Positions 1,450-63,690 of a stretch of 64,000 nt of DNA are shown here, in pieces. Position numbers and translations under genes: made by a program. This DNA comes from Cladorhizidae sp. MBARI D1340-BT2. Taxonomy: Eukaryota; Porifera; Demospongiae; Poecilosclerida; Cladorhizidae. The notes under the pieces were generated by a model. That model did no database searches. It was not told the DNA's origin and saw only the letters and a list, made by a program, of their open reading frames with translations. The stretch lies in NCBI GenBank assembly GCA_028752905.1, contig JAQNBH010000004.1, positions 37,628,336 through 37,692,335 on the forward strand. The letters run 5' to 3'. Position 1 is the stretch's first letter, and each line of letters begins with the position of its first letter.

Positions 1450-4400
1450 TGAGAATTGTCTGGTGAGGTCAGAGTGGCAAGCCTATGTTATGTCTGGTGA
1501 GGTCAGTGGCAAGCCTATGTTATGTCTGGTGAGGTCAGAGGCAAGCCTATGTTATGTCTGGTGAGGTCAGTGGCAAGCCTATGTTATGTCTGGTGAGGTC
1601 AGTGGCAAGCCTATGTTATGTCTGGTGAGGTCAGTGGCAAGCCTATGTTATGTCTGGTGAGGTCAGAGTGGCAAGCCTATGTTATGTCTGGTGAGGTCAG
1701 TGGCAAGCCTATGTTATGTCTGGTGAGGTCAGAGTGGCAAGCCTATGTTATGTCTGGTGAGGTCAGAGTGGCAAGCCTATGTTATGTCTGGTGAGGTCAG
1801 AGGCAAGCCTATGTTATGTCTGGTGAGGTCAGAGTGGCAAGCCTATGTTATGTCTGATGAGGTCAGAGGCAAGCCTATGTTATGTCTGGTGAGGTCAGAG
1901 GCAAGCCTATGTTATGTCTGGTGAGGTCAGAGGCAAGCCTATGTTATGTCTGGTGAGGTCAGAGGCAAGCCTATGTTATGTCTGGTGAGGTCAGAGGCAA
2001 GCCTATGTTATGTCTGGTGAGGTCAGAGGCAAGCCTATGTTATGTCTGGTGAGGTCAGAGGCAAGCCTATGTTATGTCTGGTGAGGTCAGAGAGGCAAGC
2101 CTATGTTATGTCTGGTGAAGTCAGAGAGGCAAGCCTATGTTATGTCTGGTGAGGTCAGAGTGGCAAGCCTATGTTATGTCTGGTGAGGTCAGAGGCAAGC
2201 CTATGTTATGTCTGGTGAGGTCAGAGTGGCAAGCCTATGTTATGTCTGGTGAGGTCAGAGTGGCAAGCCTATGTTATGTCTGATGAAGTCAGAGGCTAGC
2301 CTATGTTATGTCTGGGGAGGTCAGAGTGGCAAGCCTATGTTATGTCTGGTGAGGTCAGAGAGGCAAGCCTATGTTATGCCTGGTGAGGTCAGAGGCAAGC
2401 CTATGTTATGTCTGGTGAGGTCAGAGGCAAGCCTGGTGAGGTCAGAGGCAAGCCTATGTTATGTCTGGTGAGGTCAGAGTGGCAAGCCTATGTTATGTCT
2501 GGTGAGGTCAGAGAGGCAAGCCTATGTTATGTCTGGTGAGGTTATGTCTGGTGAGGTCAGAGGCAAGCCTATGTTATGTCTGGTGAGGTCAGTGGCAAGC
2601 CTATGTTATGTCTGGTGAGGTCAGAGGCAAGCCTATGTTATGTCTGGTGAGGTCAGAGTGGCAAGCCTATGTTATGTCTGGTGAGGTCAGAGTGGCAAGC
2701 CTATGTTATGTCTGGTGAGGTCAGAGTGGCAAGCCTATGTTATGTCTGGTGAGGTCAGAGGCAAGCCTATGTTATGTCTGGTGAGGTCAGAGTAGCAAGC
2801 CTATGTTATGTCTGGTGAGGTCAGTGGCAAGCCTATGTTATGTCTGGTGAGGTCAGAGTGGCAAGCCTATGTTATGTCTGGTGAGGTCAGAGTGGCAAGC
2901 CTATGTTATGTCTGGTGAGGTCAGTGGCAAGCCTATGTTATGTCTGGTGAGGTCAGAGTGGCAAGCCTATGTTATGTCTGGTGAGGTCAGTGGCAAGCCT
3001 ATGTTATGTCTGGTGAGGTCAGAGGCAAGCCTATGTTATGTCTGGTGAGGTCAGAGGCAAGCCTATGTTATGTCTGGTGAGGTCAGAGTGGCAAGCCTAT
3101 GTTATGTCTGGTGAGGTCAGAGTGGCAAGCCTATGTTATGTCTGGTGAGGTCAGAGTGGCAAGCCTATGTTATGTCTGGTGAGGTCAGAGGCAAGCCTAT
3201 GTTATGTCTGGTGAGGTCAGAGTAGCAAGCCTATGTTATGTCTGGTGAGGTCAGTGGCAAGCCTATGTTATGTCTGGTGAGGTCAGAGTGGCAAGCCTAT
3301 GTTATGTCTGGTGAGGTCAGAGTGGCAAGCCTATGTTATGTCTGGTGAGGTCAGTGGCAAGCCTATGTTATGTCTGGTGAGGTCAGAGTGGCAAGCCTAT
3401 GTTATGTCTGGTGAGGTCAGTGGCAAGCCTATGTTATGTCTGGTGAGGTCAGAGGCAAGCCTATGTTATGTCTGGTGAGGTCAGTGGCTAGCCTATGTTA
3501 TGTCTGGTGAGGTCAGAGTGGCTAGCCTATGTTATGTCTGGTGAGGTCAGAGTCAAGCCTATGTTATGTCTGGTAAGGTCAGTGGCAAGCCTATGTTATG
3601 TCTGGTGAGGTCAGAGTGGCAAGCCTATGTTATGTCTGGTCAGGTCAGAGTGGCTAGCCTATGTTATGTCTGGTCAGGTCAGAGTGGCAAGCCTATGTTA
3701 TGTCTGGTGAGGTCAGAGTGGCAAGCCTATGTTATGTCTGGTGAGGTCAGTGGCTAGCCTATGTTATGTCTGGTGAGGTCAGAGGCTAGCCTATGTTATG
3801 TCTGATGAAGTCAGAGGCTAGCCTATGTTATGTCTGGTCAGGTCAGAGTGGCAAGCCTATGTTATGTCTGGTGAGGTCAGAGGCAAGCCTATGTTATGTC
3901 TGGTGAGGTCAGTGGCTAGCCTATGTTATGTCTGGTGAGGTCAGAGGCTAGCCTATGTTATGTCTGATGAAGTCAGAGGCTAGCCTATGTTATGTCTGGG
4001 GAGGTCAGAGTGGCAAGCCTATGTTATGTCTGGTGAGGTCAGAGTGGCAAGCCTATGTTATGCCTGGTGAGGTCAGAGGCAAGCCTATGTTATGTCTGGT
4101 GAGGTCAGAGGCAAGCCTATGTTATGTCTGGTGAGGTCAGAGGCAAGCCTATGTTATGTCTGGTGAGGTGAGAGTGGCAAGCCTATGTTATGTCTGGTGA
4201 GGTCAGTGGCAAGCCTATGTTATGTCTGGTGAGGTGAGAGTGGCAAGCCTATGTTATGTCTGGTGAGGTCAGAGTGGCAAGCCTATGTTATGTCTGGTGA
4301 GGTCAGAGGCAAGCCTATGTTATGTCTGGTGAGGTCAGTGGCTAGCCTATGTTATGTCTGGTGAGGTCAGAGTGGCAAGCCTATGTTATGTCTGGTGAGG

Positions 4401-9414: not shown

Positions 9415-9690
9415 CTGCAACTAGTACGAGACGATCTTGCGAGACAGATCGGTGTCCTTCAGACGGACTGCCACTCGCTCAAGGCTGACCTCTGGAAGCT
9501 GAGGTTGGAGCTGGTCTCGTCACAGCAGGGTGTGGCTTCCATGGAGGAGCAGCTGAGGAGAAGTCAGCAGCAGTACGAGGTGGCCGAGGTGGAGCTCGGA
9601 GACTTGCGGAAAGATGGCGATGATCTGCACCGTCAGCTTGCCAACGTGAACACTGCAGCTAGTGGCAAGAGGTCCGAGCATGAGCAGCAG
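9415..9690 (+). CDS. Coiled-coil gene, exon 3 (residues 280-371)
   Basis: Acceptor AATTGTCTAG and donor CAG|GTAGGT. Ninety-two codons in phase 0-0 begin LQLVRDDLARQIGVLQ and end KRSEHEQQ. An in-frame TAG lies immediately before the exon and is removed by splicing. Coiled-coil composition. The sequence is a diverged relative of the second half of exon 2. Confidence 0.88.
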
Positions 9691-9719
9691 GTAGGTGCTG
9701 TTGTTCCAGTGAATTACAC

Positions 9720-10100
9720 GGAGAGTGGGTTGACCAATGTGGGAGTGGCTCCAGAGGGAGAGTGGGTGGACCAATGTGGGAGTGGCTCCAGGGGGAGAGT
9801 GGGTGGACCCATGTGGGTGTGGCTCCAGAGGGAGAGTGGGTGGACTCATGTGGGATGGCTCCAGAGGGAGAGTGGGTGTGTCCATGTGGGTGTGGCTCCA
9901 GAGGGAGAGTGGGTGGACTCATGTGGGAGTGGCTCCAGAGGGAGAGTGGGTGGACTCATGTGGGAGTGGCTCCAGGGGGAGAGTGGATGGGTCCATGTGG
10001 GTGTGGCTCCATAGGGAGAGTGGATGGACTCATGTGGGAGTGGCTCCAGGGGGAGAGTGGGTGAGTCCATGTGGGAGTGGCTCAGTGAGTGGAGACCATG
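9720..10100 (+). repeat. Minisatellite, ~37-bp unit (intron 3)
   Basis: Unit contains GTGGGAGTGGCTCCAGAGGG followed by AGAGTGGGTGGA, about 10 copies. It begins about 30 bases after the exon 3 donor. The open frames 9505-10014, 9737-10357, 9762-10064 and three on the minus strand run through it. Only the parts within exons 3 and 4 are likely to be coding. Confidence 0.93.
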
Positions 10101-10330: not shown

Positions 10331-10854
10331 GTAATTAGGGGTGTGGTGACAGGGTAATGAGGGGTGTGGTAACTAAGCAATAAGGGTTGTGACTGAGTGT
10401 ATATACGCTGAGAAGTAAGTTTTGTCTGCATGCAGGCATTGCTTGTGAAGCAGCTGTATATTATCAACCCACTCATCGGTGTAAGCAAGTACTTTACACC
10501 CTCGCATATCCGAACCTTGATTATCTCTTTGTACACTTGTAAAAATGTTGATAATTGTGAAGGGCCCCTTACTGAGGACCTAACTTCTTCTAAGCCAGGA
10601 AGTGAGCTTATTATCCCAAGGACCTGCAGATTAACTCTTACACTGCGTTTGTCACGGCGTTTGTGACACAACAATCCACCCCACGGGTGCGTGTGTCACA
10701 GCATCCGTGACAAGCAATTTACCGCTGGCAGTGCGTGTGTCACAGCATCTGTGACATGATACAGTAGAGGCCAAAAAAAACTTTACGTACCGTTTGCGTT
10801 GGACGTTTGTGGTACGTTTGAGTCGCAGCGTTGCTGTACCGTTAGGCATACGTT

Positions 10855-10915
10855 CGCCGAACGTTCGCCAAACGTTTGCCATACGTTCGCTAAACGTTGG
10901 CCAAAAACGTTTAGG
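10855..10915 (+). repeat. Subterminal 11-bp array, transposase side of Tc1 copy 1
   Basis: Five consecutive 11-mers of the form ACGTTCGCCAA / ACGTTTGCCAT / ACGTTGGCCAA. The corresponding end of copy 2 (about 60210-60270, reverse) has similar ACGTTYG 11-mers. The period is close to one DNA helical turn, as expected for an array of protein-binding sites. Transposase binding is inferred. Confidence 0.7.
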
Positions 10916-11057
10916 GATCGTTAATTGAGCGTTGTAAAATTGAATTTCTCCAGCGCATGCCAGATCGACGAAGGCGGGAGAAAGGCTAACTGTCGTTGCT
11001 CTAGCGGTTATTCTTTCAGAATCAAGATGCCTTCTTAATAGAATTTTATTCTTTAGG

Positions 11058-12240
11058 ATCTAGAGGATTCAAGGCTGCAGCTATCGTCTGTATTTTGAAG
11101 GAGGGCCTGACAGCAACAAGGCAAAGCGTCCAGTTTTGTCAAGCACTGCGAGACTGGTATCGCCTCACAGCCATGGAGCGGAGTTTTTTATTGCTGGCCC
11201 AAAACTCGTGGTCGAAAAGATGCTTGGAATATGATGAGAAGACAGCATACCAACTGCAGTTCTCATTCACAGCGAAGGGAACCCAGTCTTGCTTTGCAGG
11301 ACATTGAGTGTGTTGATATTTTGAGTCAGTGGTAATGCCAACTGATAAGAGAAGCCAATAAAGTTTGTGTTGAACTAGTTTTGGGATGGAACTATGTGAA
11401 AGTTATAATATCTAGTGTAGAAGCTTTCTGTGTCACACTGAAGCTATGTTGGTTGCTAGTGGCTAATGATAATCTAGGCCTGGGTCTTGATGGTATTTTG
11501 GTTAGAGCCAATGTGCCGATTGCCATTGGATTAAAAAATATATATTTATTATATATAGTTTAGGGACTTTGTAGATGTTATGGCTTAAATCTAGGGCAAG
11601 ATATTGATATAGAACACTGGTGAATTGGTATAGTGACTCATGTAATAACATGATCAATAGCAGTATCATTTATCCCTGTCCTAGGTCAAGAGATTGGAGC
11701 GAGATACAGAACCTTGAAGAGGACAGACGAGTGCACAGTTCAATTGGAAACACATAGGCTTTTTGTTGTTGTATAAGGCAGGCACGAAAGAACAAGCCAA
11801 GATATGATTCATGTTGTATTATGGTTGTGTGTAATAAGGTGTAGATTTATACTCAGGTGTTTTAAACCTCTGTTTATTTGATTATAGCGTGAAACATTTG
11901 GTGAAGGTAAATGTGTGGGCCAGTATTATGAGAGCCACTTTTTGTTCAAATTCTTCACTAGACCCTTTTTACCCTTTGTAAAGGATGTTTGCTCCCATCA
12001 CCACATGCAGGACACTGACCCCAAACGCACATCCAGGCTGGCTAAGGAGTTTGATATAAATTGATGGAGGATGCCTCCTGAGTTTCAATGCCAACCCCAT
12101 TGAAGACCTGTGACACGAGTACATCAGGAGAGAAGTGAAGCCCAAGTCCAAAGCTGAATTGGTGGACAGCTTAACACAATTTTGATTAACTGTAGATGTC
12201 AGAAGTAGAACAGACACCTGGAGGGTTAGGCCACGGGGGG
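11058..12240 (+). pseudogene. Tc1-type (DD34E) transposase remnant, copy 1
   Basis: Three blocks match the transposase of copy 2. First, the N-terminal helix-turn-helix region (GSRGFKAAAIVCILKEG, from 11058). Second, a block after CCTAG at 11693 with KRLERDTEP and RTDECTVQLETHR. Third, a C-terminal block from about 11887 with VKVNVWA, PFLPFVKDV and TDPKRTSRLAKEF, then ANPIEDL. The blocks are separated by the same intron-like gaps as in copy 2. Stops and indels break the frame, and the catalytic segment is degraded. It is not functional. Confidence 0.8.
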
Positions 12241-12258
12241 GGGGGGGGGGGGGGGGGG
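12234..12258 (+). repeat. Poly-G tract, ~25 bases
   Basis: Uninterrupted G run following CCAC. It sits where the C-terminal transposase match of Tc1 copy 1 ends and the missing BEN segment would begin. Such tracts can form quadruplexes, and the length may be unreliable in the assembly. Confidence 0.8.
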
Positions 12259-12434
12259 ATTATTTGGAAATCACTTGCCAAGCAATGCTTCTTGATATCA
12301 AGTTGGCAAAACTTTCGTGTGTTTGGGCAGTTAGAGATGTTAAATTTTCTTATTAAATTATCAATAAGAAGAAAAAAAATAATGATAATTTCAAAAACAA
12401 CTATATAGTTATCGAACAAGTCCAGTCCTGACCC

Positions 12435-12919
12435 CACCACCACAGATGTAGAGTGAAGAACTGTAATCCTCGTCTTCCATGACAGGCTTGAATTCTTCCT
12501 CCATGGCTGCCTGGTAACTGCATTTCAAAATAGTAAATCACACCTGAACTTGATTTGATTTAAAACTTAACAATAGCTGAAATCTTGCCTTTATATATCA
12601 CCCTCACTGCCTTGGCCTCCCACCTCCCACTCCCACTGAGGAGCACTCTAAAACATTGCTGCTTGGTACAGCCACCCAGAACTTTCATTCTGCCAGAAGA
12701 CCAAACAATAGTCAGTATAATTATCATTAGTGGATCCACTGTTCTAGCTTTTATTTTGGGGGGTTTCGTTTTAAATATGTAACACTAACAACTAGACTGA
12801 AGTAAAGGCTGGGTCACTACCACAGATAGGCGCTAGAGGTTCAAGCCATTGGAGTTCTACCTAGTGTTACACTTACTGCTCAGAGCGAAGGTAGCAGCGA
12901 GAGTTCTTCTGTAAGCCAT
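12435..12919 (-). pseudogene. BEN-domain gene remnant in Tc1 copy 1 (exons 1-3)
   Basis: Read on the minus strand, 12919-12877 is a 43-bp first exon, MAYRRTLAATFALS, ending at a GTAAGT donor. It has the same length and nearly the same sequence as exon 1 of the BEN gene in copy 2 (MALQRTLAATLAHR). Bases 12711-12571 match exon 2 (YCLVFW and the AAGATTTCAGCT end), but its acceptor AG has decayed to TG and stops are present. Bases about 12510-12435 match exon 3 (AAMEEEFKPVMEDED). The BEN domain itself is deleted. Confidence 0.75.
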
Positions 12920-13069
12920 TCCCAGGACAAATCAAAAGTAGAAGCTGCAACAAAACAGAACAGTAATCAACAGTAGGCCGACTGACTTGCGCTCCATCGA
13001 ACACGTGGTGTAGGATACCGAATGTTGATTGCGCGTTTCGGATAATTAAATAACGGTTCGTGCGTTGCG

Positions 13070-13185
13070 TTCGCGATACGTTGCTTGAGCGTTTCCTGTG
13101 CGTTGCTTGAGCGTTGCTTGAGCGTTTCCTGTGCGTTGCTTGAGCGTTGCTTGAGCGTTTCTTAAGAACGGTTTCTGCGTTGAAC
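13070..13185 (-). repeat. Subterminal 11-bp array, BEN side of Tc1 copy 1
   Basis: Tandem 11-mers CGTTGCTTGAG and CGTTTCCTGTG alternate about eight times next to the right terminal repeat. Copy 2 has the equivalent at its left end (about 56388-56445: CAACGCACAGG / CAACGGTCAGG). The sequence differs from the array at the transposase end. Confidence 0.75.
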
Positions 13186-13237
13186 GTTTACCCAACGCAA
13201 CGGTACGTAAAGTTTTTTTTGGCCGCTACTGTAAGAG

Positions 13238-50808: not shown

Positions 50809-51534
50809 GAGCACGTGCTTTCACTGGAGACTGGGGAGATATGCCGGACTTCTCTAGGCCAGCAGATCACGTCTCTTCAGAGAGACCTCGATGCTGCTCA
50901 GACCAAATGGATGAACAAATGCCGTGACATCCAAGCCACTTGCCAGCGGCAGATGGCGTCGATGGGGGAGGAGCATGCACAGGAAATACACGCAGAGGTC
51001 TCCAGAATCAAAGAAGAGCACGAGCGAGAGCTGAAGGTGATGTCGTCGGATTACTCGTGTAAATTTGAACTGGAACGGAACAGGCTCACTGTGGAGCTCC
51101 AGTGCTTCCATCAACAGCAGCTACGGAGCAGGGAGTCGGAACTCTTCAAGCAGCTCCGGGAAGAACGGGTCCGATTGGCTTCCCGGCTGACAGAGTTGGA
51201 GGAGACCCACCAACAGGAAATTAAAACGATTACAGCCGAGCATGCCCGGAAGCTTAAAGAAGACCGCGAGCATGCGGAGATGGAATTAGGAACTACTCAC
51301 CAAGCCGAGAAGATGGTCACGGAAGGAGTGACGAATGCTCCGAGGATGCGAGAGCTCGAAGTCTCGCACCATCGCGACGTACCGGGGCAGCTGGAGCAAG
51401 TTCATTTGATGGACCAGACCTCCCATCAGCAGCAAGTGGAGAGAACCCTAGCAGAAAATGCTCTGACATTCGAAGCAGAAAGGGCTGCCCACCAACAGGA
51501 AGTGAAGGAGATCAATGCCCAGCAGGCACAGAAG
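50809..51534 (+). CDS. Coiled-coil gene, exon 16, largest exon (residues 893-1134)
   Basis: Acceptor CTTCGTAG and donor AAG|GTACAA; 242 codons, phase 0-0. Starts EHVLSLETGEICRTSLGQQI. Continuous coiled coil with recurring His-Gln motifs (EEHAQEIHAE, ETHQQEIKTI, TSHQQQVERT, AAHQQEVKEI) at roughly 30- to 90-residue intervals, similar to the EHAQQ/EHEQQ motifs that end exons 1-3. The block EGVTNAPRMRELEVSHHRDV is a likely break in the helix. Confidence 0.93.
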
Positions 51535-51654
51535 GTACAAATAATGTCACTAGACACTATTCAACTAGCATGTTTTGTCTTGCTTATTCGCTGTGGTGAC
51601 TGGACTCTAGGGGGTTGCCCAATCTTCTTTGTCGTCAGCATGTTATAACCCTGA

Positions 51655-55384: not shown

Positions 55385-56316
55385 TATCTTCTTTTATATG
55401 ATGCCCTAGTATACCTAGTGTTTATACCATGCCCTAGTATATCTAGTGTTTATACCATGCCCTAGTATACCTAGTGTTTATACCATGCCCTAGTATACCT
55501 AGTGTTTATACCATGCCCTAGTATACCTAGTGTTTATACCATGCCCTAGTATACCTAGTGTTTATACCATGCCCTAGTATACCTAGTGTTTATACCATGC
55601 CCTAGTATACCTAGTGTTTATACCATGCCCTAGTATACCTAGTGTTTATACCATGCCCTAGTTTACCTGATGTTTATACCATGCCCTAGTATACCTAGTG
55701 TTTATACCATGCCCTAGTATACGTAGTGTTTATACCATGCCCTAGTATACCATACCTAGTGTTTATACCATGCCCTAGTTTACCTAGTGTTTATACCATG
55801 CCCTAGTATACCTAGTGTTTATACCATGCCCTAGTATACCTAGTGTTTATACCATGCCCTAGTATACGTAGTGTTTATACCATGCCCTAGTATACCTAGT
55901 GTTTATACCATGCCCTAGTATACCTAGTGTTTATACCATGCCCTAGTTTACCTAGTGTTTATACCATGCCCTAGTATACCTAGTGTTTATACCATGCCCT
56001 AGTATACCTAGTGTTTATACCATGCCCTAGTATACGTAGTGTTTATACCATGCCCTAGAATACCTAGTGTTTATACCATGCCCTAGTATACCTAGTGTTT
56101 ATACCATGCCCTAGTATACCTAGTGTTTATACCATGCCCTAGTATACCTAGTATTTATACCATGCCCTAGAATACCTAGTGTTTATACCATGCCCTAGTG
56201 TTTATACCATGCCCTAGTGTTTATACCATGCCCTAGTACTACCTGGTGTTTATAACCATGCCCTAGTATACCTAGTGTTTATACCATGCCCTAGTGTTTA
56301 TACCATGCCCTAGTAT
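55385..56316 (+). repeat. Minisatellite, 28-bp unit (intron 19)
   Basis: Unit begins TATACCTAGTGTTTATACCA and continues TGCCCTAG, about 33 copies. It ends immediately at the left TA of the Tc1 element at 56319, and no repeat is found beyond the right end of the element. Confidence 0.96.
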
Positions 56317-56570
56317 TACAGTAGACGCCAAAAAAAACTTTACGTACCGTTGCGTTGGGCTTCCGTTCAATGCAGAAACGTTTAATCAGCAACGCACAAG
56401 CAACGGTCAGGCAACGCACAGGCAATGCTCAGACGCACGGACCGTTCTTAAATTATGCGCAATCACATTTCCGGTAGCCTTCACCACGTGTACGAAAGGG
56501 CACGTTCGATTACTTGCTACTTCGAGGTTGAACAGTCTGCTGCTTCTCATTGCTATCTATTGTTTGCTCT

Positions 56571-58704
56571 ATGGCTCTCCAAAGAACTCTAGCTGCTACC
56601 TTGGCTCATCGTAGTAAGTATACTTGCCTGAAGGGGAAAAACAGCTAAAAGCTAGCGCAGAGACCCAGTAACAACCAAGATTTTAGCTACTTCTAGCAAA
56701 GATCTGTACATTAACCATAGCGTGTTCATCTTGAGAGCATTTAGATCAGAATTAATTTATCTTTGAACTCTTGATACTTTACAGATTATTGTTTGGTCTT
56801 CTGGCCCGAAGAAAATTCGGTCTCTGCTGTACCAAGCAGCAAAGTTTTAAGGGGGCACCTTGGTCGGAGAGGACTGTGAGGTCAAAGCGGGGAGGCTGAC
56901 TTTCAAAGGGAGGATTTCAGCTGTTGGTAAGTTTGAAAGAAGTTTTTAAAAATCGAGTTCAAGTGAGATTATTATGCTGAAATATAGGTATCCAAGCAGC
57001 CACGGAGGAGCTGGAGGAGGAGTTTGAGCCAGTCTTTGAAGACGATGAGGAAAATGTTGCTCCTTGCCCTCAACCAATGGCACAGTCTGGTGTAAGTTGT
57101 TTATTTAGATGATTTAATTTTGATATTGCTGAGCCTGTTAAGGCCTTCACATATATATTACAGCACACTGTGGAACTATTTAGTAATAACAATCTATATT
57201 CAACTACTTAATTAATCCAATAGATTATAATCTGAGTTAAATTCAACGAATTTAATTCAGACTTCGAAGCGGAAGAGGAGGAGTGGTCAAGGGGAAGAAC
57301 CTCAAGGAAAGAAACCTGATGGTGTGTTACAGTTCAATAATCAACTTATAATGTACTCTCAATGATTCTACTAACCTTCATCTGGAATGATGGATTTTTG
57401 TTACTATGGTCATATGATGCTGCCCTCCTGCACAGCTCGGGCACATTCTCCATTGCCAACTCTATTCTCTTCTGATCCAATTGAATCTATTCCTGTAAGC
57501 TTTGAATGTATTTATTTTGGAAGTAATCAATTCTAAAAATCTTCTAATTCAGATGTCTACCAGAGACCCCAAAAGAGGGAAATTCCAGAAACCTGCTGAA
57601 GGTGAAGTAATTAAAATTCATAGGGTGTCCATCATAATTTGATTTCACCAAATAGGTTCCATAATACTGGTGACCTCGCCTAGTTCTGCTGAACTAGCAG
57701 AAATTTGAAGTGCCAGGGAACTTTCACCAAGAAATGGAGGATATTGGCGAGTGTGTATTGGGTGATGCCAGGGCAACAACTCCTACTTCAGAGTTTGGTA
57801 AGTGCACCTAAATTTATAACTGTTGGTCAAATCTTCATGTAAATTTATTATTGGTCAATTGCATGTAAATTTATTATTGGTCAAATGTTTGGGTCAAATG
57901 TTCATGTTCATGTAAATTTATTATTGGTCAAATGTTCATGTATTTATTATTGGTCAAATGTTCATGGTCAAATGTTCATGTACATTTATTATTGGTCAAT
58001 GTTCATCATGTAAATTTATTATTGGTCAAGGTTCATCATGTAAATTTATTATTGGTCAAGGTTCATCATGTAAATTTATTATTGGTCAAATGTCCATAAT
58101 GCCACAGCTCTGAACATGGAGATGGCAGTGTTGGAGCAATCTGAGAGGCTTGACATGATGGAGAAAGGCCAGAAAGAACTGGCGAGATCAATCAAAAAAA
58201 TTGAGAAAACATTGGAGGATATTCTGAAGAGGCTCTTCTCAATCAGTTCCTCCAGCCCCAACCTCTCCTCCCCGTTCCCCGCCGCCTCCAACCCACACCT
58301 CACTTCCACCTCCTCGTTCCCCGCCGCCTCCAACCCACACCTCACTTCCACCTCCTCGTTCCCCGCCTCCTCCAACCCACACCTCACATCCACCTCCGTC
58401 ACCTGTCACTTCTCCTGCTGCCATAGCCACAACCTGTGATCGCCCTGCATGCAAGCCAATTGGTGTTGTGAAGCGGGCACTACCATCTCATATGATACAA
58501 GAGGACCTTGAGGATATTAGCACAGTATTGGCAAGATATCTAAAATTGCAACCTCTCTGCAAAGTCGGAGCCTTGGCATGCAAGCTAGCCAGAGAGGCAA
58601 TATTTGGACAGAATGTAATGAACATGTGTACTCCCATGGGGAACCGAGATCTGCCTGGGCTTCCTATCGAAGAGCTAAAACTCTTGAAGAAAACGATTTA
58701 CTAA
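56571..58704 (+). pseudogene. BEN-domain protein gene carried by Tc1 element, 8 exons, two frame breaks
   Basis: Exons 56571-56613, 56785-56926, 56988-57091, 57261-57321, 57436-57494, 57553-57601, 57711-57797 and 58108-58704 join with matching phases and GT-AG borders. Exon 1 begins MALQRTLAATLAHR. Exon 2 reads YCLVFWPEENSVSAVPSSKV, then in another frame CEVKAGRLTFKGRISAV. This resembles the N-terminal module of many BEN-domain proteins. Exon 4 has a basic stretch, KRKRRSG, a possible nuclear signal. Exon 8 has a short coiled coil, a Pro-rich linker with a 42-bp coding repeat (58262-58395), and a terminal BEN-like domain (KVGALACKLAREAIFG, then LPIEELKLLKKTIY). BEN domains bind DNA or chromatin. 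Frame breaks lie in the G5 run near 56855 and near 58230-58250. Role in transposition is unknown. Confidence 0.72.
57815..58090 (+). repeat. Tandem repeat, ~28-bp unit, in a BEN gene intron
   Basis: TTATTATTGGTCAAATGTTC and CATGTAAATT units, about nine copies, between exons 7 and 8 of the element-borne gene. Confidence 0.9.
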
Positions 58705-58708
58705 ATAT

Positions 58709-60030
58709 TCAGTACCCTGTAGCTGCACCCTCTAGTTCTATTATTTTAGGAATTACTTTTCTAAGGTGTCTAATGTATTTCTGACATTTAGTAATATCTA
58801 CAGTTAACCAAAATGGTCTTATTCCATCCACCAATTCAGCCTTTGTCTTGGGCTTTACTTCCCTCCTGATGTACTCTTTTAATTCGTGCCACAGGTTTTC
58901 AATGGGGTTGGCATCTGGAGACTTAGGAGGTGTCCTCCACCAATTAACATTGTTTGATTTCAAGAATTCCTGAGCCAGCCTAGATGTATGCTTGGGGTCA
59001 TTGTCATGCATGTAGCTATGCCGGGGACCTTCACAAAGGGTAAAAGGTCTTCTTGAGAATTTCCACAAAAAGTGGTGCTCTCATGATACCATCAAATATG
59101 CATATTCCTGTTCTCCCTTTCATGCTGATTCCTGCCCACACATGCACCTTCACTGGATGTTTCGCCCTATAATCAAACATACAGATTGTATATCATAAAT
59201 ATACAGCATGTAACATACCTTGGCTTGTTCTTTGGTGCCCTTCCTACCTTTCGGCAACAAAACCGCCTGTGCGTTTCTAACTGAACCGTGCACTCATCTG
59301 TCCAAATAACATTAAAAAACCCATCAGCTGCTTCGTCAACGTTCTGCCTGGCCCACTCCAATCTTTTGACCTAGGATAGGGATAAATAATACTGCCTTTG
59401 ATCACAGGCTTATTACACAAGTCACTGTACAAATTCACCAGTGTTCAATAACAATATCTTACCTAGGTCCTAAAGCATCACACCAACAAGGTGCCCAATT
59501 TTTTTAAATCAAATGGCTTATCCCGATCGTCATTGACTCTAGCAAAACTGCCCCCAAAACCAAGGCCTAGATTATCATTAGCCACTAGCTTCAGCATAAG
59601 AGAAAGCTTCTACACTGGTATTAACTTTCACTAGCTTAGCTTAAACTATGTACACAACACAACAAACCTTGTTGACATCTCTTATAAGTTGGCAGTATAC
59701 ACTGCCTCGAAAAGTCCACCCAAGCAATGTCTGCCACCACAACACTGTCCTCAGGGATAGTGGATATCCTTTGCTGTGAAGGAGGAGGTGTAATTGATAA
59801 GCAGTTGTCTCGTCCATCTTTTCCTCTACAACTCTCTTGACAGCAGATGTCACCAACGAAAGTCTCCCACTCCCTGGCTGTCTGGCGATTGTACCAGTCT
59901 CACGGTACCGCTTAATAAAACTGTAGACGCCTTGCCTCGTTGCTGTCATGCCCTCCTCATTCAAAATGCGGACTATAGCTGTAGCCTTGAATCCTCTTGA
60001 TTCCAGAGTGAGAATCCTCTGTTTCTTAAA
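58709..60030 (-). pseudogene. Tc1-type DD34E transposase with introns, frameshifted
   Basis: Three exons read on the minus strand. Exon about 60030-59668 is the N-terminal DNA-binding half (ILTLESRGFKATAIVRILNE, then TATRQGVYSFIKRYRETG), ending RDVNK. Exon 59370-59219 starts VKRLEWARQNVDEA and holds the first catalytic Asp in IWTDECTVQLETHRR. Exon 59166-58709 contains KVHVWAGISMKG, the second Asp in HDNDPKHTS and the Glu in NPIENLWHELK. There are 34 residues between the last two, which is the DD34E signature of Tc1. Splice sites GTATGT and TTATAG rejoin the Arg codon of KPR-AKHPV. The frame breaks near 59020-59050 (after FVEILKK). About 340 residues overall, normal for the family. Ends ELEGAATGY. 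Confidence 0.85.
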
Positions 60031-60337
60031 TGTAGAATAAGCATTTACTCGGAGTAGTAGGTGAGCGCTAAAAAGTCAGAGTAGAAGTGAGCGCTAAAAC
60101 ACGTGTAACTAGCATTAGCCTTTCTCCCGCCTTCGTCGATCGCGGGAGAGCATGCGCAAGTTAATTCAATATTAGAACGCTTAACGATTCGTGGCTAACG
60201 TACCGTTCGCACATACTTACGTTGTTGGCAAACGTTTGTCGAACGTATGGCGAACGGTAGAGGAACGCTGTGACTCAAGCGTCCCGCAAACGTACAACGC
60301 AAATGGTACGTAAAATTTTTTTGGGGTGTGTACTGTA

Positions 60338-62703: not shown

Positions 62704-62997
62704 GAGCAAGAGTGGCGCTCCCAAGCAGAGCATGCACGTCATACTGCAGACAGCAGTCTACTACACCAACTCCACTTGGAGAAATCTCGGTCGTGTGAGC
62801 TGGAGAAAAAGGTGTCTTCCCTGCACGGGGACCTCACTGGTAAGAATGCTCAGTTGCTCGAAGTGGACACAGAGAACAGACAGCTGCGGGAAGTGTCCAA
62901 GGAGAGAGATAGACTCCAGCGGCAGTTTGACTCTGTGCAGTCGGCAGTGGAGCAGTCAGTGAATAAAGCCAGTGACGCCATTGACTGCCTCCAAAAG
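62704..62997 (+). CDS. Coiled-coil gene, exon 23, last in window (residues 1403-1500)
   Basis: Acceptor GTGTTGTAG; donor AAG|GTAGCA at 62998. Ninety-eight codons, phase 0-0, start EQEWRSQAEHARHTADSSLL and end SDAIDCLQK. Strong coiled coil (ENRQLREVSKERDRLQRQF). Reading could continue in frame through the following 51-bp repeats until a TAA at 63604, so the 3' boundary depends on which repeated donor is used. Confidence 0.88.
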
Positions 62998-63690
62998 GTA
63001 GCAAGTATGCCTGTGGATTGTGCTAATAGTATTGACTGCCACCAACAGGTAGCAAGTATGCCTGTGGATTGTGCTAATAGTATTGACTGCCACCAACAGG
63101 TAGTGAGTATGCCTGTGGATTGTGCTAATAGTATTGACTGCCACCAACAGGTAGCTAGTATGCCTGTGGATTGTGCTAATAGTATTGACTGCTACCAACA
63201 GGTAGCAAGTATGCCTGTGGATTGTGCTAATAATATTGACTGCCACCAACAGGTAGTGAGTATGCCTGTGGATTGTGCTAATAGTATTGACTGCCACCAA
63301 CAGGTAGTGAGTATGCCTGTGGATTGTGCTAATAGTATTGACTGCCACCAACAGGTAGTGAGTATGCCTGTGGATTGTGCTAATAGTATTGACTGCCACC
63401 AACAGGTAACAAGTATGCCTGTGGATTGTGCTAATAGTATTGACTGCCTTCAACAGGTAGCAAGTATGCCTGTGGATTGTACTAATAGTATTGACTGCCA
63501 CCAACAGGTAACAAGTATGCCTGTGGATTGTGCTAATAGTATTGACTGCCACCAACAGGTAGCAAGTATGCCTGTGGATTGTGTTAATAGTATTGACTGC
63601 AACTAACAGGTAGCAAGTATGCCTGTGGATTGTGCTAATAGTATTGACTGCCACCAACAGGTAGTGAGTATGCCTGTGGATTGTGCTATT
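62980..63690 (+). repeat. 51-bp repeat that multiplies the exon 23 5' splice site
   Basis: Each unit is ATTGACTGCCACCAACAG (a copy of the exon end) plus GTAGCAAGTATGCCTGTGGA and TTGTGCTAATAGT (intron start). GT donors fall at 62998, 63049, 63100 and so on to 63661 with no indel, so about 14 copies. Since 51 is 17 codons, the frame stays open through 63606. Each donor up to 63559 would add a multiple of 17 residues. Confidence 0.93.

Follow-up and report, generated by a model that had tools for sequence, protein, structure and literature searches.

A Tc1/mariner-type element with a second gene and CpG-rich, repeat-bearing ends in a cladorhizid sponge

The window analysed in this study, a 64-kb stretch of DNA from a cladorhizid sponge, contains a Tc1-type element at positions 56319–60335, which is recognised by a TA on both sides (strandless target duplications at 56317–56318 and 60336–60337), matching ends and a transposase. 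The terminal inverted repeats of ~40 bp are located at 56319–56358 (plus strand) and 60296–60335 (minus strand) and were aligned with 5 mismatches and 2 gaps across 41 columns. Both the boundaries and the matching ends had been proposed in an earlier sequence-only reading of this DNA, whose coordinates proved exact to the base. A pattern for the terminal repeats recovered the right end and gave 0 matches in 100 shuffles, a test that is not independent, as the pattern was built from the first-copy ends themselves. Two genes are enclosed by these ends, a transposase gene on the minus strand and a second gene on the plus strand. They are convergent, with stop codons at 58709–58711 and 58702–58704, respectively, and 4 bp in between, and both are broken in this copy. 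By the features tested, the element belongs to Tc1/mariner and is Tc1-like DD34E, with the exception of the N-terminal helix-turn-helix of the transposase, for which the matches stayed below the cut-offs.

The transposase can be followed as an open frame from 60075 down to its stop codon, with two GT-AG introns (59667–59371 and 59218–59167); no start codon was recognisable in the open frame beginning at 60075. Its first open stretch (59668–60075, minus strand) gave weak helix-turn-helix matches, namely HTH_32 with E=0.013 and PAX with E=0.12, neither of which reached its curated cut-off. The middle exon (59219–59370, minus strand) contains a WTDE motif, the D of which is taken as the first catalytic residue by alignment to Sleeping Beauty, and the last exon (58709–59166, minus strand) contains the DND...E motif, in which 34 residues separate D and E; its frame is broken near 59045. 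When read across this break, the joined translation matched the Pfam profile DDE_3 with E=2.3e-20 and Sleeping Beauty (5cr4) with E=6.2e-28 over residues 121–330, the alignment reaching the last residue. The DD34E transposase of the sequence-only reading, for which a DDE_3 search of the reconstructed protein had been suggested, is thus supported by residue spacing and by both matches. With Sleeping Beauty and other Tc1-like DD34E elements, the element shares the TA duplication, the inverted ends, DDE_3, the D-34-E spacing and the C-terminal alignment to the last residue, whereas it differs from them by its length of 4.0 kb, the transposase introns, the second gene and CpG-rich subterminal arrays. 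The usual one-gene Tc1 elements are shorter than 4.0 kb.

For the second gene, a model of eight plus-strand exons (56571–58704) with GT donors and AG acceptors was drawn by hand. Exon 1 (56571–56613) begins with an ATG at 56571 and is followed by the donor GTAAGT, exon 2 (56785–56926) has a frame break near 56870, and exon 3 (56988–57091) is followed by exon 4 (57261–57321), which is basic and includes KRKRR. Exons 5 (57436–57494), 6 (57553–57606) and 7 (57701–57797) lead to exon 8 (58108–58704), which ends with the stop codon; the donor of exon 6 and the acceptor of exon 7 were picked by hand to keep the frame. Within exon 8, a heptad-patterned stretch is followed by proline-rich repeats of 42 bp, where the frame changes, and then by a C-terminus (58438–58701) which we tentatively call BEN-like; the frame break lies between 58228 and 58439. 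The encoded protein would have a basic stretch and a likely coiled coil between its conserved N-terminal part and the BEN-like C-terminus. The eight-exon gene described in the sequence-only reading is recovered with GT donors and AG acceptors, while the frame is interrupted in exons 2 and 8.

Comparison of this element against the rest of the window revealed a second copy of the same family, an internally deleted element of 2470 bp on the minus strand at 10762–13231 with TA at 10760–10761 and 13232–13233. Like the first copy, it has terminal inverted repeats flanked by a duplicated TA, and it is likewise broken. Its ends are better kept than those of the first copy (1 mismatch and 1 gap in 41 columns). 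Exons 1–3 of the second gene are found at 12466–12919 on the minus strand, with exon 3 partly deleted, and are ~75% identical to those of the first copy, while exons 4–8 are absent. The transposase region together with the right end occupies 10771–12197, with the transposase frame on the plus strand and 66% identity to the first copy including gaps; roughly 29 residues are missing from the C-terminal end of this transposase. The stretch between the second-gene part and the transposase also contains a run of 24 C. In both copies, the left end is followed by exons 1–3, then by the transposase, encoded on the opposite strand, and finally by the right end.

Since the second copy carries exons 1–3, the second gene appears to have been part of the ancestral element, and most simply, the two-gene arrangement is ancestral to both copies, as judged from a sample of two copies that both lie within the 64-kb window. 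A segmental duplication of one insertion is disfavoured, because blastn between the 1-kb flanks of the two copies returned nothing with E up to 1e-3. The recurrence of the same order of ends and genes at a second, unrelated position of the window supports the earlier proposal that the second gene is the element's own cargo. The proposal had been made subject to other copies not lacking this gene, and here the only other copy gave a divided answer, as it has exons 1–3 and lacks exons 4–8. A chance neighbourhood, in which an ordinary Tc1 element lies beside a host gene and the ends only seem to bracket both, could draw on possible host exons nearby, as a single long coiled-coil gene, suggested by open frames and weak Pfam matches, may harbour both copies within its introns. 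It is contradicted by the second copy, in which order, ends and gene recur with their own TA and non-matching flanks. Also, no additional terminal-repeat copy was found between the second gene and the transposase of the first copy. We consider such a coincidence very improbable and rejected it.

The two copies also allowed a comparison of codon positions, counted without codons that contain gaps, internal insertions or stops. In exons 1–3 of the second gene, which yielded 76 codons with exon 3 of the second copy being partly deleted, mismatches at codon positions 1, 2 and 3 numbered 12, 17 and 28, an excess of position 3 over positions 1 and 2 (Fisher p=0.0055), and dN/dS was 0.52, whereas the wrong frames gave 1.41 and 0.71. 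The transposase gave 58, 41 and 75 mismatches in 237 codons (p=0.0022) and a dN/dS of 0.35 compared with 0.79 and 1.51 in the wrong frames. Exons 1 and 2 of the second gene together are identical at 139/183 positions versus 80/161 in intron 1 (p=6e-7). Intron 2 is conserved like the exons (40/52), and the transposase introns, with 205/294 and 37/52 identical positions, are not far below the transposase exons (584/773). Exons 1–3 look like sequence under coding constraint, which suggests that the second gene was in use while the lineages moved. The dN/dS comparison among copies that the sequence-only reading had called for thus covers the first three exons across two copies; exons 4–8 are carried by one copy only.

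The sequence-only reading had placed a terminal BEN-like domain in exon 8 and had named a profile search without a BEN hit for this C-terminus as a refuting result, and such was the outcome. Pfam BEN (PF10523) did not match the 158-aa frame, the last 88 aa, the joined protein or two shorter cuts in searches that asked for E up to 10, with the HMMER filters dropping most matches above ~0.1. Fragments of fly Insensitive and of BEND6, used as positive controls with the same Pfam library, were matched with 1e-20 and 1.2e-9. On a profile of three BENs with solved structures, the second-gene C-terminus scored -0.8 bits and was exceeded by 1366 of its own shuffles, where 4351 sequences were scored of 5001 given. 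A PDB sequence search with the C-terminus gave no match at E up to 10, and with the joined second protein no BEN chain was matched. An AlphaFold2 model from the single sequence, without alignment, had a mean pLDDT of 39.9 and was useless. The supposed BEN exon is known from the first copy only, because the second copy is without exons 4–8, and no DNA-binding profile reached its cut-off in the second gene. With five sequence forms unmatched by Pfam BEN and a three-BEN score lying among those of shuffles, BEN as an established fact was rejected.

A true but divergent and C-terminally truncated BEN, captured from a host BEN gene, is nevertheless a serious possibility, if less likely than not, and has these negative searches against it. 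By eye, the C-terminus appears to be spaced like the first helices of BEN, and proteins resembling it in cnidarians and sponges are presumably annotated as BEN. Known BENs diverge: with the three-BEN profile, built from BEND6 and two fly proteins, human NACC1 was reached only at E=0.06–0.08, so that the profile tests have limited force against a divergent BEN. In a by-eye register on this broken copy, the frame appears to end after a helix-4-like stretch and before helix 5, which PMC11472053 describes as the main DNA-reading helix of the five in BEN. Compared with the BEN proteins BANP, BEND3 and Insensitive, the second gene is alike in a possible helix spacing seen by eye, and it differs in having no profile match, in the seeming absence of helix 5 in the first copy and in being borne on a transposon. 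Capture of a BEN would be compatible with the accessory-factor explanation discussed below and does not exclude it.

Both ends of both copies are rich in CpG in a window that is otherwise CpG-poor, with a median observed/expected ratio (o/e) of 0.20 and a 99th percentile of 1.17 for the sequence outside the elements, sampled in 453 overlapping 250-bp windows. The left end of the first copy (56319–56568, plus strand) has 19 CpG with o/e 1.35 and its right end (60069–60318, minus strand; element positions 3751–4000) has 26 CpG with o/e 1.93, while the terminal bins of the second copy have 28 and 24 CpG with o/e 1.89 and 1.90; three of these bins comprise 250 bp and one 220 bp, and the right bin in the first copy leaves out the last 17 bp. 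The interiors of both copies range from 0.00 to 0.73. A few host windows are high, the highest reaching o/e 1.64 with 5 CpG. CpG depletion and introns together would suit an animal-like eukaryotic genome. Since one gene begins behind each of the CpG-rich ends, each end is likely a promoter.

The ends also contain units of 11 bp, which are of GCAACGC type on the left, with four of them at about 56389–56432 in the first copy, and built around ACGTT on the right, where some of them have a palindromic core (CGAACGTTCG, CAAACGTTTG); the right end of the first copy contains AACGTT-type units. The number of units varies between the copies. Within the window, 8/10 occurrences of GCAACGC and 9/9 of CGAACG fall into the four 260-bp ends, both motifs having been chosen after the ends had been seen. 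An 11-bp spacing of CpG as in the second copy was reached by 0/1000 shuffles at either end. In the first copy the spacing was not significant (192/1000 and 203/1000 shuffles), with four units visible on the left.

Starting from the two-gene structure, the second copy with the same gene start, the constraint on exons 1–3 and the CpG-rich, repeat-bearing ends, we tentatively propose a two-gene Tc1/mariner lineage whose second protein acts as an accessory factor at the CpG-rich ends, a joint claim to which we give somewhat less than an even chance. The second gene would already have belonged to the element when the two copies diverged, with selection preserving its first exons. Its protein would oligomerise via the putative coiled coil and bind the 11-bp repeats, with their CpGs, that lie in the CpG-rich stretch at either end; once bound, it could keep the terminal promoters open and unmethylated and/or bring the ends together for the transposase. 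We infer these promoters, the protein–DNA contact, oligomerisation, anti-silencing and help in transposition from the arrangement of genes and repeats. The second protein, with its basic stretch and heptad pattern, is a natural candidate for binding the arrays, whose spacing is that of a helical turn. The sequence is equally compatible with a simple accessory function or with a repressor, and the targeting or silencing role put forward in the sequence-only reading is plausible.

Several observations speak against the accessory-factor view. Besides the unmatched BEN profile and a frame that by eye ends before helix 5, the first copy shows no significant 11-bp spacing, the second copy has no counterpart of the supposed DNA-binding part, some introns are conserved near exon level, high CpG o/e also occurs in a few windows of host sequence, and there are just two copies, both broken. 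It is also conceivable that only the transposase or host factors make use of the CpG-rich ends. The second gene might instead be an old passenger, or encode a protein that acts in transposition by protein contact or as a transposase repressor without binding the ends, which would then be ordinary promoters and transposase sites. This is in line with the lack of any DNA-binding profile at cut-off, BEN included, and with the left end, which is identical between the copies at 97/115 positions without gaps, as expected of transposase sites; moreover, CpG-rich promoters in a CpG-depleted genome require no element-encoded factor. The 11-bp units, however, look like more than one transposase site and differ in number between the copies, and the constraint on exons 1–3 speaks against a mere passenger. 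We regard a second gene of this non-binding kind as a serious possibility, yet not as the probable one.

The proposal that an accessory factor acts at the ends gains from analogies. VANDAL elements of Arabidopsis belong to a superfamily other than Tc1/mariner. According to PMC10398659, their VANC anti-silencing proteins bind VANDAL noncoding regions in which the targets form tandem repeats, and silent marks are lost; an element-encoded non-transposase protein and tandem repeats in noncoding regions are shared with the sponge element, whereas VANDALs are plant elements, and binding and demethylation are only proposed here. BANP selects unmethylated tandem CpG motifs through oligomerising (PMC11472053), and oligomerisation together with a preference for unmethylated CpG, as in BEN proteins, would fit the putative coiled coil and the CpG arrays. 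By analogy to BANP and VANC, the role of the second gene may be to shield the ends or to open them. The more far-reaching form, an animal Tc1/mariner lineage with built-in anti-silencing, in which a coiled-coil, CpG-reading protein on 11-bp arrays keeps the ends unmethylated and active while the genome around them is CpG-depleted, we consider unlikely.

That Tc1 elements normally encode only a transposase, as the sequence-only reading had stated, is broadly right, with the ciliate elements TBE and Tec as exceptions. As described in PMC7325037, these belong to the Tc1/mariner superfamily, are DD34E and have several ORFs, including one in the complement in Tec and one for a zinc-finger protein in TBE. 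The likeness to the sponge element, which is one by description, extends to superfamily, DD34E and multiple ORFs. In contrast to the sponge element, TBE and Tec are restricted to ciliates and have other additional ORFs and terminal inverted repeats of about 80 bp and 700 bp, respectively (PMC7325037). In our literature search, which left Repbase/Dfam and most subscription journals outside, no description of a Tc1/mariner element with a BEN or a second gene of this kind was found. Prokaryotic and viral sequence collections, which say little on an animal element, were searched as well: the 158-aa frame gave 464 pattern stretches in prokaryotic genome contigs, none of them confirmed, and in viral contigs the end pattern gave 0 matches, the C-terminus 34 pattern stretches and the C-terminal piece of the transposase 8, none confirmed. 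A shorter end pattern had 2 matches in bacterial metagenome bins among the genome contigs, about as many as expected by chance by a rough estimate, and Rfam gave 0 matches at the gathering cut-off.

Tc1-type cut-and-paste elements, whether found in nature or used as tools, are regarded as simple one-gene machines. If true, a lineage carrying and conserving a second gene along with CpG-rich repeat arrays at its ends would be a testable animal case of a transposon bringing its own regulator, perhaps a transposon-borne defence against DNA methylation. Should the anti-silencing reading be true, the element would provide an animal parallel to VANC of the plant VANDAL elements.

The sequence-only reading, which described the two-gene Tc1/mariner element at 56319-60335, did not include a second copy of the same family located at 10762-13231 on the minus strand. 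This copy is deleted inside, and a stretch taking the place of exons 4-8 of the second gene, the eight-exon gene beside the transposase in the first copy, contains a run of 24 C residues (12235-12258, minus-strand reading).

Outside the two elements, 52.5% of the window consists of tandem arrays (period 10 or more), which merge into 50 arrays. Of the two elements' four ends, three border a minisatellite array whose edge lies at most 3 bp from the base outside the TA, namely at 56314/56317 (2 bp), 13232/13234 (0 bp) and 10756/10760 (3 bp); for the fourth end the distance is 821 bp. As background, 1.9% of the positions in the window outside both elements have an array edge within 5 bp. This arrangement may reflect an insertion preference or arrays growing out from the element ends.

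Four coiled-coil-like open frames, all on the plus strand, were detected at 140-673, 9415-10014, 50809-51648 and 62704-63606, and their Pfam matches are weak only, all below the cut-offs. These same-strand frames may be exons of a single long gene, in which both elements would be intronic.
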